Origin: Dehalococcoidia bacterium
GTDB taxonomy: Bacteria > Chloroflexota > Dehalococcoidia > Lucifugimonadales > UBA3495
Assembly (NCBI GenBank): GCA_009692925.1
Contig: SHYG01000012.1
Span: forward strand, 1 to 41,897
Length of the DNA stretch: 41,897 bases
Reading direction: 5' to 3'
Of the stretch, positions 3,699 to 14,849 are shown piece by piece. The notes below the pieces were generated by a model. It ran no database searches. It was not told where the DNA came from and saw nothing but the letters and a program-made list of their open reading frames with translations. The position numbers were made by a program, and so were the translations under genes. The first letter of the stretch is position 1. Each line of letters starts with the position of its first letter.

Positions 3699-4214
3699 AT
3701 GCTGAATATCACTTCCTTGGCGGTAGAAAAACTGCGAGAGGTAATGGAGCAGGAGCAGGAACCCAATGGCTCATTGCGCATCGTCGCTATGCCCGCTGAG
3801 CGCGGCGGGTTGCAATATATGCTCACCATGGAAAAGGAGACCCAGCCGGACGACACCCAACTGAACGTCCAGGGTCTCAAGTTCCTCATGGATTCCGACA
3901 GCGCACCCTTCCTGGATGAGGCCACCATCGACTACATTGAGCAGCTTGGTGGCCGCGTCGGGTTCGTCATCAACAACCCCATGTTTGCCACCGGCGGCGG
4001 CTGTGGCAGCGGCAGTTGCGGCTGTGGCAGTGGCGGTGGTGGCGGCGGCGGATGTGGTGGTGGCGGCGGCGGCGGCGGATGTGGTTGCGGCAGCGGCGGC
4101 GGCGGACACGAGCACGCCGAGGCCCACGGCCACGAGCATGGCGAGGCCCAAGCTGGCGCGTGCGGCTGTGGCAACACCGGCGGCTGCAACTGCGGCGGCG
4201 GTCACGGCCACTAA
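3699..4214 (+). CDS. HesB/IscA-like protein with Gly/Cys/His-rich tail
   Basis: Residues 1-95 follow the A-type Fe-S carrier (HesB/IscA) fold: LNITSLAVEKLREVM, then GGLQYMLTMEKE, then VQGLKFLMDSDSAPFLDEATIDY. The usual first ligand Cys before GLQY is absent (PAERGGLQY). The C-terminal C-x-C site is present but embedded in a 75-residue tail of Gly runs with ten Cys and seven His. The total of 171 aa compares with about 110 for ordinary IscA. A metal-binding or scaffold role is more likely than classical three-Cys cluster transfer. It is preceded by GGGAGAG and a possible TTGACT (3606) promoter, and followed by a strong terminator, so it is monocistronic. Confidence 0.8.
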   Translation: MLNITSLAVEKLREVMEQEQEPNGSLRIVAMPAERGGLQYMLTMEKETQPDDTQLNVQGLKFLMDSDSAPFLDEATIDYIEQLGGRVGFVINNPMFATGGGCGSGSCGCGSGGGGGGGCGGGGGGGGCGCGSGGGGHEHAEAHGHEHGEAQAGACGCGNTGGCNCGGGHGH

Positions 4215-13144: not shown

Positions 13145-13180
13145 CCCAGCCATCAGACACACCTTCAAGGAGGACTCAGT

Positions 13181-13741
13181 ATGGCAACCGAAATCTCCAC
13201 CATCGTCCTGCACCCCGCCGCGGAGGATGTGGCCCAGCAGCAGCAGCTGGCCCCGCGCCTGGACGCGCTCCAGGGCGCCACCGTGGCGTTGGTGGACAAC
13301 TGCAAGCGCAACGCCGATGTCTACCTGCAGGAGCTGGGCCGCCTGCTGCAAGCGCAGTACGGCGTGGCCCGGCTGGTCAACTACCGCAAGGACAGCCAGA
13401 GCCTGCCCACGCCGCCGGAGGTGATGGACCGGCTGGCCGCCCAGTGTGACGCCATCATTCATGCGGTGGCGGATTGAGGGTCCTGCACAGCGTGGGGTCT
13501 CCACGACGGAATAGAATACGAGAAGCGCGGCCGCGCCGCGGTGACGGTCATCACCGATGCCTTTATCCGGGCGGCCCAGAACCGGGCGCGGGCGCTGGGG
13601 CTAACCGAGCACCCAGTGGTAGTTATTAAGCATCCCATTGCCAGCATGAACCGGGACCAAGTAGTGCAATTGGCGCGCGGCAGCGTGGAGCAGGTGGCCC
13701 AAGGCCTGCTGGCGGCCGCTGGAGGAGCGGGCAATGACTAG
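13181..13741 (+). CDS. UGSC-motif selenoprotein (in-frame UGA at codon 99 = Sec)
   Basis: ATG 13181 follows AAGGAGG. The frame meets TGA at 13475-13477 and continues open for 87 more codons to TAG 13739-13741, giving 186 residues with Sec at position 99. The residues around the TGA read VAD-U-GSC-TAWG, the U-G-S-C motif of a known (seleno)protein family in which some members use Cys. Residues 28-98 (GATVALVDNCKRNADVYLQELG; CDAIIHAVAD) and 103-186 (GIEYEKRGRAAVTVITDAF; HPVVVIKHPIASMN) are parts of one alpha/beta domain, so the second half is not a separate gene. Sec and Cys could form a redox pair. A SECIS-like hairpin follows the UGA. The substrate is unknown. Ordinary annotation would report a 98-aa protein plus a fragment. 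Confidence 0.92.
13478..13510 (+). promoter_or_regulatory. Bacterial SECIS element
   Basis: Directly after the UGA, CGTGG (13491-13495) pairs with CCACG (13501-13505) around the loop GGTCT (13496-13500). A lower TCC/GGA pairing (13481-13483 with 13508-13510) is possible. The loop begins 18 nt after UGA. The E. coli fdhF SECIS, as I recall it, has the same GGUCU loop bases at the same distance, the site bound by SelB. Confidence 0.85.
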
Positions 13742-14849
13742 CCCAGCGCGCTCCCCTCGTCGCGGCCCGGCGGCAGCGGCGGCGCCCGTCGCAGCGCCGC
13801 GGGCCAGCCGCCTGAGCGTCTCCGGCTCGGTGCGGGACATCAACGACTACTACTATGCCAAGGGCTGGACCGACGGCCTGCCCATCATCCCCCCCACCCA
13901 GGATCTGGTGCTGGAGATGCTGGAGGCATCGCCGGTGACCATGAAGGCGGAGCAGGTGCTGGGCCGCCTGCCGCCGCTGAACGGCACCGTCACCGTGGAG
14001 AAGGTGGCGGTGAACTCGGTGATGGCGGGCTGCAAACCCGACTACTTCCCGGTGGTGCTGGCGGCGGTGAAGGCGGTGCTGCAGCCCCAGTTCAACGCCG
14101 GAGGCATTACCACCACCACCGGGGGCGCGGCGCCGGTGCTCCTGGTCAGCGGGCCCATTGCCCAAAGGCTGGGAATCAACAGCGGCACCGCGGTCTTTGG
14201 CTCCGGGCACCAGGCCAACGCAACCATCGGGAGGGCGCTGCGTTTAACCATGCGAAACCTGGGCGGGGCGGTGGCCGAGACCATGGAGAAGTCCACCCAC
14301 GGCTGGCCGGGCAAATACACCATGTGCTTTGCGGAGAACCAGCCGCGCTGCCCCTGGGAGCCGCTGCACGTGGCCCTGGGCTATCCCGCCGAGGCCAGCA
14401 TCGTCATCGTGGTGGCGGCCCGGGGCATTCACACGATGGTGGAGTCCAGCCAGGAGACGGGCGAGGGCGCGCTGGAGACCCTGGTAGCCTCCATGACCGC
14501 CGGGGGCATCTCCGGCTACTACTTCCAGGCCCGGGGCGCATCGCCGGTGGTGGTGCTGGGGCCGGAGCACGCCGCGGAGATTGCGGCGTCGGGCTATAGC
14601 CGCCAGGATGTGGTGGACTACCTGTTTGAGCACGTGCGACTGCCCATGGGCGTCATCAAGAACCGCGGGCACTACGGGGCGCGCTCCTGGCCCGCCGAGT
14701 ACGAGACCGCGCCCGACGACTTCATGGTGCCCCTGGTAGCCGACAGAAGCAAGTTCCTGGTGATGGTAGCCGGCGGCGACGGCCGGCACAGCTCCTGGTT
14801 CCCCGCCTGGTCTGCCACCCAGCGCGCGGTGGAGGTGGTGGAGGGGTAG
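13734..14849 (+). CDS. Conserved partner of the UGSC selenoprotein, function unknown
   Basis: A 371-residue protein whose ATG lies within the end of the selenoprotein gene (8-nt overlap ATGACTAG) after GGAGGAG, so the two are translationally coupled. After a low-complexity Ala/Pro/Arg N-terminus (residues 1-30), the conserved body starts at INDYYYAKGWTDGLPIIPPT and contains TVEKVAVNSVMAGCKPDYFP, GINSGTAVFGSGHQANATIG and WPGKYTMCFAEN. These Gly/Asn/Thr-rich loops look like an active site, and Cys in VMAGCKP and MCFAENQPRC could exchange with the selenoprotein. There is no membrane segment. I do not know its reaction; the tight linkage suggests that the two act together on one substrate. Confidence 0.8.
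   Translation: MTSPARSPRRGPAAAAAPVAAPRASRLSVSGSVRDINDYYYAKGWTDGLPIIPPTQDLVLEMLEASPVTMKAEQVLGRLPPLNGTVTVEKVAVNSVMAGCKPDYFPVVLAAVKAVLQPQFNAGGITTTTGGAAPVLLVSGPIAQRLGINSGTAVFGSGHQANATIGRALRLTMRNLGGAVAETMEKSTHGWPGKYTMCFAENQPRCPWEPLHVALGYPAEASIVIVVAARGIHTMVESSQETGEGALETLVASMTAGGISGYYFQARGASPVVVLGPEHAAEIAASGYSRQDVVDYLFEHVRLPMGVIKNRGHYGARSWPAEYETAPDDFMVPLVADRSKFLVMVAGGDGRHSSWFPAWSATQRAVEVVEG

Follow-up and report, generated by a model that had tools for sequence, protein, structure and literature searches.

A UGSC-family selenoprotein with a near-constant partner and a probable distant kinship to the selenocysteine domain of GrdB

The window, that is, the whole 41,897-nt stretch of DNA from a Dehalococcoidia bacterium that was analysed, contains a reading frame that continues through an in-frame TGA codon. 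This locus raises the questions of whether the UGA is read as selenocysteine (Sec) and what the resulting protein would do in the cell. The gene is a member of the UGSC family, which is already named in print and whose function is not.

The family has been in print at least since the GOS paper of 2008 (PMC2398784), the accessible text of which ranks it fifth by number of sequences (255) among the selenoprotein families of the GOS ocean data, and Figure S1A of which depicts a "UGSC/Unknown_1" fusion; the word UGSC also occurs in PMC9402790, PMC5029168, and PMC7435645. The accessible portions of five accounts of the family (PMC2398784, PMC13188914, PMC9312934, PMC7539508, and PMC5330540) contain neither a link to GrdB nor a function, and name as a partner at most the "Unknown_1" fusion of PMC2398784, subscription literature lying mostly outside the search. 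The literature on SAR202 selenocysteine and on D-proline reductase yielded nothing on the UGSC family. New here are a near-constant partner, a Rossmann/flavodoxin-like predicted fold, and a Sec-to-Sec profile link to GrdB and PrdB.

Reading frame and decoding of the UGA codon

The features of the locus, all on the forward strand, are as follows.

13167..13173, +, strong AAGGAGG ribosome-binding site of the UGSC gene, 7 nt 5' of the ATG (read from the sequence)
13181..13741, +, UGSC-family selenoprotein gene, 186 aa when read through the UGA (frame and profile matches)
13475..13477, +, UGA codon, read as Sec, residue 99 (D-U-G-S-C context and homologues)
13484..13486, +, codon for Cys102, the last residue of the UGSC motif, replaced by Ser in 3 of 112 members
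13489..13507, +, SECIS-like hairpin within the UGSC coding sequence (covariation)
13491-13505, +, core stem CGTGG/CCACG of the hairpin, with the loop GGTCT at 13496-13500
13721..13727, +, GGAGGAG ribosome-binding site of the partner, within the UGSC frame (read from the sequence)
13734..14849, +, partner protein of the "TDGLPxxPPT" family, 371 aa, overlapping the UGSC gene by 8 nt

The initial annotation had described a frame that starts at ATG 13181, passes through the TGA at 13475-13477, and stays open for 87 codons, with U-G-S-C flanking the TGA. Both the coordinates and the sequence confirmed this description, the frame ending at TAG 13739-13741. The two halves had also been regarded as one protein. 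In agreement with this, the 98-aa segment before the TGA and the 87-aa segment after it matched PF24696 separately (76.8 and 77.5 bits, respectively, against a cut-off of 25), and the two matches adjoin in the model, covering profile positions 2-92 and 94-170. The joined protein, with Cys in place of Sec, matched PF24696 at 174.2 bits (cut-off 25, profile 2-170 of 172) and NF041046 at 135.2 bits (curated cut-off 125, profile 2-145 of 147). Because each half alone matches PF24696, the read-through is not a matter of chance. In addition, the start of the partner gene at 13734 and its own GGAGGAG lie inside the UGSC frame, as expected if ribosomes reach 13741.

The corresponding codon was compared in 112 UGSC rows, which represent 111 distinct genes since one gene occurs twice (L044 and L067). 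The 33 members from the class of the organism are its best-scoring loci, rather than a random draw, and were included under the rule that one stop is followed by G-x-C, which 33 of 33 passed. Three UGSC-like fragments scoring below 90 bits in a profile built for this analysis (L071, L080, and L109) were excluded from these 112 and from the 104 sequences used for the hairpin below. The site is TGA in 109 of the 112 members and a Cys codon in the other 3, which are carried by Natrialba asiatica DSM 12278 (L083), a Binatia MAG, and Mycobacterium gordonae. The motifs were UGSC (96), UGAC (5), UGGC (4), UGSS (3), CGSC (3), and UAAC (1), so that U-x-x-C was present in 106 of the 112. The homologues continue past the TGA position, and the existence of a UGSC family with Cys-containing relatives, which the initial annotation had stated, is borne out by these codons and by the NF041046 and PF24696 matches. 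The window gene shares with this family the whole-length match, the U-G-S-C motif, the alternation of Sec and Cys, and the SECIS-like hairpin after the UGA, and no difference between them was found.

The genome of the window (2.07 Mb in 101 contigs, 91% complete) was searched for selA, selB, selC, and selD, and each was found over its cut-off: a tRNA-Sec of 66 bits (cut-off 47), which ARAGORN typed as SeC with the anticodon TCA, selA at 554.7 bits (cut-off 267.9), selB at 309 bits (cut-off 242.25), and selD at 399.3 bits (cut-off 125). The selD gene (contig C38, 11798-12721) has one in-frame TGA of its own, and because it matches over the cut-off, SelD itself is probably a selenoprotein. The same genome contains four UGSC genes, the window gene and three more, with one in-frame TGA each.

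Across the 245 genomes of the class, the UGSC family was found in 78, with one TGA each among the matches listed. Strong selA matches, for which weak matches were removed by eye and 162 genomes kept (161 over the cut-off), were present in 70 of these 78 genomes, compared to 92 of the 167 others. For the 8 UGSC genomes without a strong selA match, four (G009, G023, G037, and G231) are less than 90% complete, one (G043) has a UGSC match only at E 6.8e-4, and three (G062, G158, and G229), which are 90, 90, and 98% complete, respectively, have no such explanation. Five genomes had either 12 or at least 13 UGSC matches; four of them (G027, G028, G045, and G046) had at least 13 each, a very large paralogous selenoprotein set per genome, the assembly of G046 being fragmented and 62% complete. 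According to the accessible text of PMC5330540, selenoproteins with the UGSC motif occur in genomes with a tRNA-Sec of anticodon CUA, which fits a real requirement for Sec.

The SECIS-like hairpin was analyzed in 104 distinct UGSC sequences, as 42-nt stretches from the TGA. The five-pair core stem (columns 17-21 with 27-31) was complete in 98 of the 104, and the loop residues G23, U24, and U26 were kept in 102, 102, and 101, respectively. The two outer pairs formed in only 69 and 73, and in the window sequence they are unpaired (13489-13490 with 13506-13507). Two-sided changes were seen at 6 of the 7 pairs, the observed scores were reached by 0 of 500 shuffles, and registers slid along the alignment paired 17-53% of cells, compared to 90% in the real register. 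Shared ancestry of the sequences and the protein-coding role of the stem inflate these counts, which thus provide strong support, not proof, that a hairpin just after the UGA helps Sec decoding. When folded alone, the 48-nt stretch of the window preferred another structure (z 0.40), and an Rfam search of 13400-13600 returned no SECIS family at E ≤ 10. The three Cys-form genes have C instead of U at loop position 24 (n = 3), one of them retaining only 2 of the 5 core pairs, and the usual loop is absent in two of the three UGSS members (L063 and L066).

The machinery, the TGA or Cys codons of the homologues, and the covarying hairpin together suggest that the gene very probably encodes a true selenoprotein, as first annotated, with the UGA almost certainly decoded as Sec. 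For the Sec/Cys pair, we infer, as the initial annotation did, that it is redox-active. However, U is kept while Ser replaces the motif Cys in 3 of the 112 members (L063 at ~5621, L066 at ~5494, and L087 at ~998), and Cys is missing at this position in all four full-length GrdB relatives (three UGTS and one UGTG). These observations suggest that the Sec may be able to act without the motif Cys.

The partner protein

The partner itself matched nothing in Pfam, NCBIfam, or PDB sequences, and as an 18-member family it gave only weak and scattered matches, two of which were to ResA and arose from a fused domain. Its residues Asp47, Cys100, Arg167, and Glu201 are invariant. At the 33 class loci, it was found within 1.5 kb of the UGSC gene in 23, including all 4 copies in the genome of the window, either upstream or downstream of UGSC and in some cases overlapping it. 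A scan of genome contigs with a single protein as query found no relative. The scan of GTDB genomes with an alignment profile of the partner confirmed at least 575 places, the best 80 of which, from named genomes of several phyla and chosen by score rather than at random, were studied.

Among these 80 loci, a UGSC gene was present on the same strand within 1 kb of the partner in 73, at a distance of at most 310 nt in 67 of the 73. It preceded the partner in 53 and followed it in 20, and its site codon was TGA in 70 and Cys in 3. For the remaining 7 loci, no UGSC gene was found in the surrounding stretch, some of these stretches being cut by contig ends; at L060, L126, and L127, the stretch without UGSC extended 3.3 to 6 kb on each side. 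In 12 of the 80 loci, the two proteins form one frame that is broken only by the Sec codon, with the order UGSC-partner in 11 and partner-UGSC in 1. One UGSC-partner fusion, with TGA at the Sec site, belongs to Neobacillus bataviensis LMG 21833 (L111). The "UGSC/Unknown_1" fusion of the GOS paper, which, in the text accessible, joins UGSC to a conserved domain, may correspond to these fusions.

The two families also occur together across the 245 class genomes: both were found in 73 of the 79 genomes having either, UGSC only in 5, the partner only in 1 (at E 4e-4), and neither in 166. Their copy numbers correlated with a rho of 0.94 over 65 of the 73 genomes, the 8 genomes with lower-bound counts being left out. 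The p-values for this co-occurrence overstate independence, because the class genomes are related. Taken with the fusions, these results leave little doubt that UGSC and its partner would act as one functional unit.

At three loci, the partner has an N-terminal domain named thioredoxin-like here on the basis of weak ResA/thioredoxin matches and inspection, with CPTC in two (L175 and L176) and no second Cys in the third. Foldseek returned very weak matches for the partner, the closest being chains of class I fumarase and cyclic-amide hydrolase, with TM ≤ 0.33.

Predicted fold and relationship to GrdB and PrdB

An AlphaFold2 model of UGSC, built from 63 sequences, had a pLDDT of 94.8 and consists of five alternating strands and helices (E-H-E-H-E-H-E-H-E-H), with the Sec99 position directly ahead of the helix after strand three. 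The predicted fold thus looks Rossmann/flavodoxin-like, as read from the strand/helix alternation rather than from the sheet order. The accessible text of the GOS paper (PMC2398784) calls the fold "likely Trx-like", and a 2026 review, in the part available, lists UGSC among the selenoproteins of Trx-like fold. The predicted UGSC model is not of the thioredoxin type, and Foldseek gave only generic alpha/beta matches, with no thioredoxin among the best 50 of 1712 PDB matches. Searches of PDB sequences with the UGSC and partner proteins and profiles returned nothing credible.

In profile comparisons by hhalign, UGSC aligned with a profile of four full-length GrdB proteins, read through the UGA, at P 6.6e-7 (probability 92), with Sec placed on Sec. 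Reversed GrdB or UGSC profiles gave P 0.24 and 0.49, the best of 100 column shuffles scored 20.8 compared to 51.8 for the real alignment, and UGSC against the partner profile, as a further control, gave P 0.49. When the Sec column was masked, P was 6.5e-6. The alignment with 13 PrdB-like proteins was weaker than that with GrdB, at P 2e-4, with P 0.09-0.1 for the reversed controls.

Single proteins pointed in the same direction. When 63 UGSC proteins were scanned against 18,950 NCBIfam models, gly_red_sel_B was the model most often matched after UGSC itself, by 31 of the 63 at E ≤ 1 (best 2.3e-6), followed by GrdF (13), various_sel_PB (12), PrdB (7), and GrdH (5); the window protein itself matched none of the GrdB-type models at E ≤ 1. 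Ten UGSC proteins were scanned with coordinates, and 4 of them matched GrdB/PrdB-type families at E ≤ 0.01, each match spanning the region around the Sec, the other 6 giving no such match at this threshold. The best GrdB-type score listed for these ten was 18.8 bits, compared to cut-offs of 602.2 (TIGR01917) and 65.45 (TIGR01918), and, where bits are listed, single UGSC proteins lie far below the membership cut-offs of GrdB and PrdB. The four-GrdB profile detected 4 of the 63 at E ≤ 0.1, compared to none of 63 reversed proteins, 315 shuffled proteins, or 745 frames taken from the 80 loci; with the PrdB-like profile, 3 of the 63 proteins and none of the same controls were detected. The two most GrdB-like of the 63 are the UGSS members L063 and L066.

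The Pfam GRDB model (347 positions) ends where GrdB and PrdB-like genes have their Sec codon, which would hide the link between UGSC and GrdB from Pfam. For the stand-alone PrdB-like frames of the class genomes (L141-L158 and L160-L164), all 23 end at a TGA followed by P/S/A/W-x-C, and the Pfam search registered no stop there, its model ending at the TGA. Thirteen of the 23 were read through the TGA and aligned to form the PrdB-like set; several of the rest continue beyond the TGA into a long, unrelated-looking tail.

These results suggest that UGSC and the Sec domain of the GrdB, GrdF, GrdH, and PrdB subunits are very likely distant homologues. With GrdB, GrdF, and GrdH (PF07355, TIGR01917, NF040794, and NF040795), UGSC shares this domain in profile register, an E-x-x-G-[IV]-P-like region after the Sec, and an HP/YP-x-G-like region near the end, whereas it is without the N-terminal GrdB domain, falls far below the membership cut-offs where these are listed, and has a partner not detectably related to GrdE. 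With PrdB (TIGR04483) and the stand-alone PrdB-like proteins, it shares a short Sec protein, U-x-x-C, a related domain, and occurrence in the same class, but the profile link is weaker. Two identities were rejected for the partner, namely a relative of GrdE, the pyruvoyl subunit of glycine reductase (hhalign P 0.69), and a part of GrdB (P 0.051, probability 1%). The genome of the window, at 91% completeness, had no match to PF07355 or PF09338.

Candidate function

By analogy, by which the substrate and the reaction are also assigned, UGSC would most likely supply the selenol of a two-part reductase that is regenerated by thiols and acts on small carboxylate-type substrates. In such a mechanism, the partner would bind or activate a small carbonyl or carboxylate compound, and the Sec selenolate of UGSC would attack the carbon beside the carbonyl and expel its substituent. 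The Se-C or Se-S intermediate would be resolved by a nearby Cys or an outside thiol, and the selenol would be reset by a thioredoxin-type donor, at which the CPTC domain of partners L175 and L176 hints. Where a genome has several paralogues, each would act on a different substrate. Because no relationship between the partner and GrdE was detected, the way in which GrdB enzymes activate their substrates is not transferable, and the activation chemistry of the partner must be its own. In the part of the 2026 review available, GrdB is described as binding glycine, with release of ammonia, and the accessible text of PMC10838667 presents a GrdB-like pair of Synergistota as a candidate for the dehalogenation of monofluoroacetate, a substrate that is not an amino acid.

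The surroundings fit organic-acid catabolism, as judged from the families named. The neighbors in the window are a dienelactone hydrolase, an FAA hydrolase, a GMC oxidoreductase, a luciferase-like monooxygenase, HpaB, and a cyclase-family protein, and among 122 flanking frames at other loci, chosen by a crude rule, 11 were TctC receptors and 5 were CoA-transferases III, the rest belonging to scattered families. Operon neighbors were rejected as a guide to the substrate, because these varied families name no single one. Elsewhere in the window, the product of a frame at 3699-4214 (+), named by eye, resembles an iron-sulphur carrier of the IscA/HesB type whose long tail is rich in Gly, Cys, and His.

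Three other explanations were weighed. That the TGA is an ordinary stop, with the downstream half a separate gene or the gene a frame-preserving wreck, is exceedingly improbable: the default genetic code and the unremarkable energy of the isolated hairpin are all that speaks for it, whereas the TGA recurs at the same codon with intact flanks in 109 of 112 homologues, both halves match one family model, the genome has the full Sec machinery, the hairpin covaries beyond all 500 shuffles, and 11 fusions continue past the UGA into the partner. A Sec-dependent enzyme formed by UGSC and the partner, but with chemistry other than a GrdB-like reductive elimination, such as a hydrolase-like nucleophile or the reduction of a cofactor, is rather unlikely, although homology to GrdB fixes the domain of UGSC and not its reaction, and the partner is neither detectably GrdE-related nor more than very weakly matched in structure. 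No particular alternative of this kind has positive evidence, and Sec is rarely retained for non-redox catalysis.

UGSC might instead use a Sec/Cys redox pair to act as a general oxidoreductase on thiols and disulfides or on peroxides, as the printed "likely Trx-like" fold implies. The prevalence of U-x-x-C, the placement of the family among Trx-like-fold selenoproteins in the available text of PMC2398784 and of the 2026 review, and the thioredoxin-like domain fused to some partners agree with such a role. It is nevertheless unlikely, because the confident model is predicted to be Rossmann/flavodoxin-like and not Trx, the profile link goes to GrdB, and Sec is kept without the second Cys in three members; the near-constant 370-aa partner and the many paralogues would also better suit substrate-specific enzymes. 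For the preferred reading, GrdB-like reductive chemistry as such stands at about even chances, and the explanation as a whole, that is, a Sec-decoded UGSC, a unit with the partner, and a GrdB-like mechanism, is favored with modest confidence.

Overall, UGSC and its TDGLP partner may, as a tentative proposal somewhat short of an even bet, constitute a class of selenoenzyme not yet described, related to GrdB and built of two parts, but without a GrdE-type pyruvoyl subunit. This class would extend over many bacterial phyla and, in a Cys form, to a haloarchaeon, and in some genomes its dozen or more paralogues would be reductases that differ in the dissolved organic carboxylate they act on. Gene-calling software that ends a frame at UGA misses the C-terminal half of a UGSC-type protein, and the partner is matched by no Pfam or NCBIfam model. 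With a near-constant partner, natural fusions, and the link to GrdB, the function of UGSC becomes a testable question.
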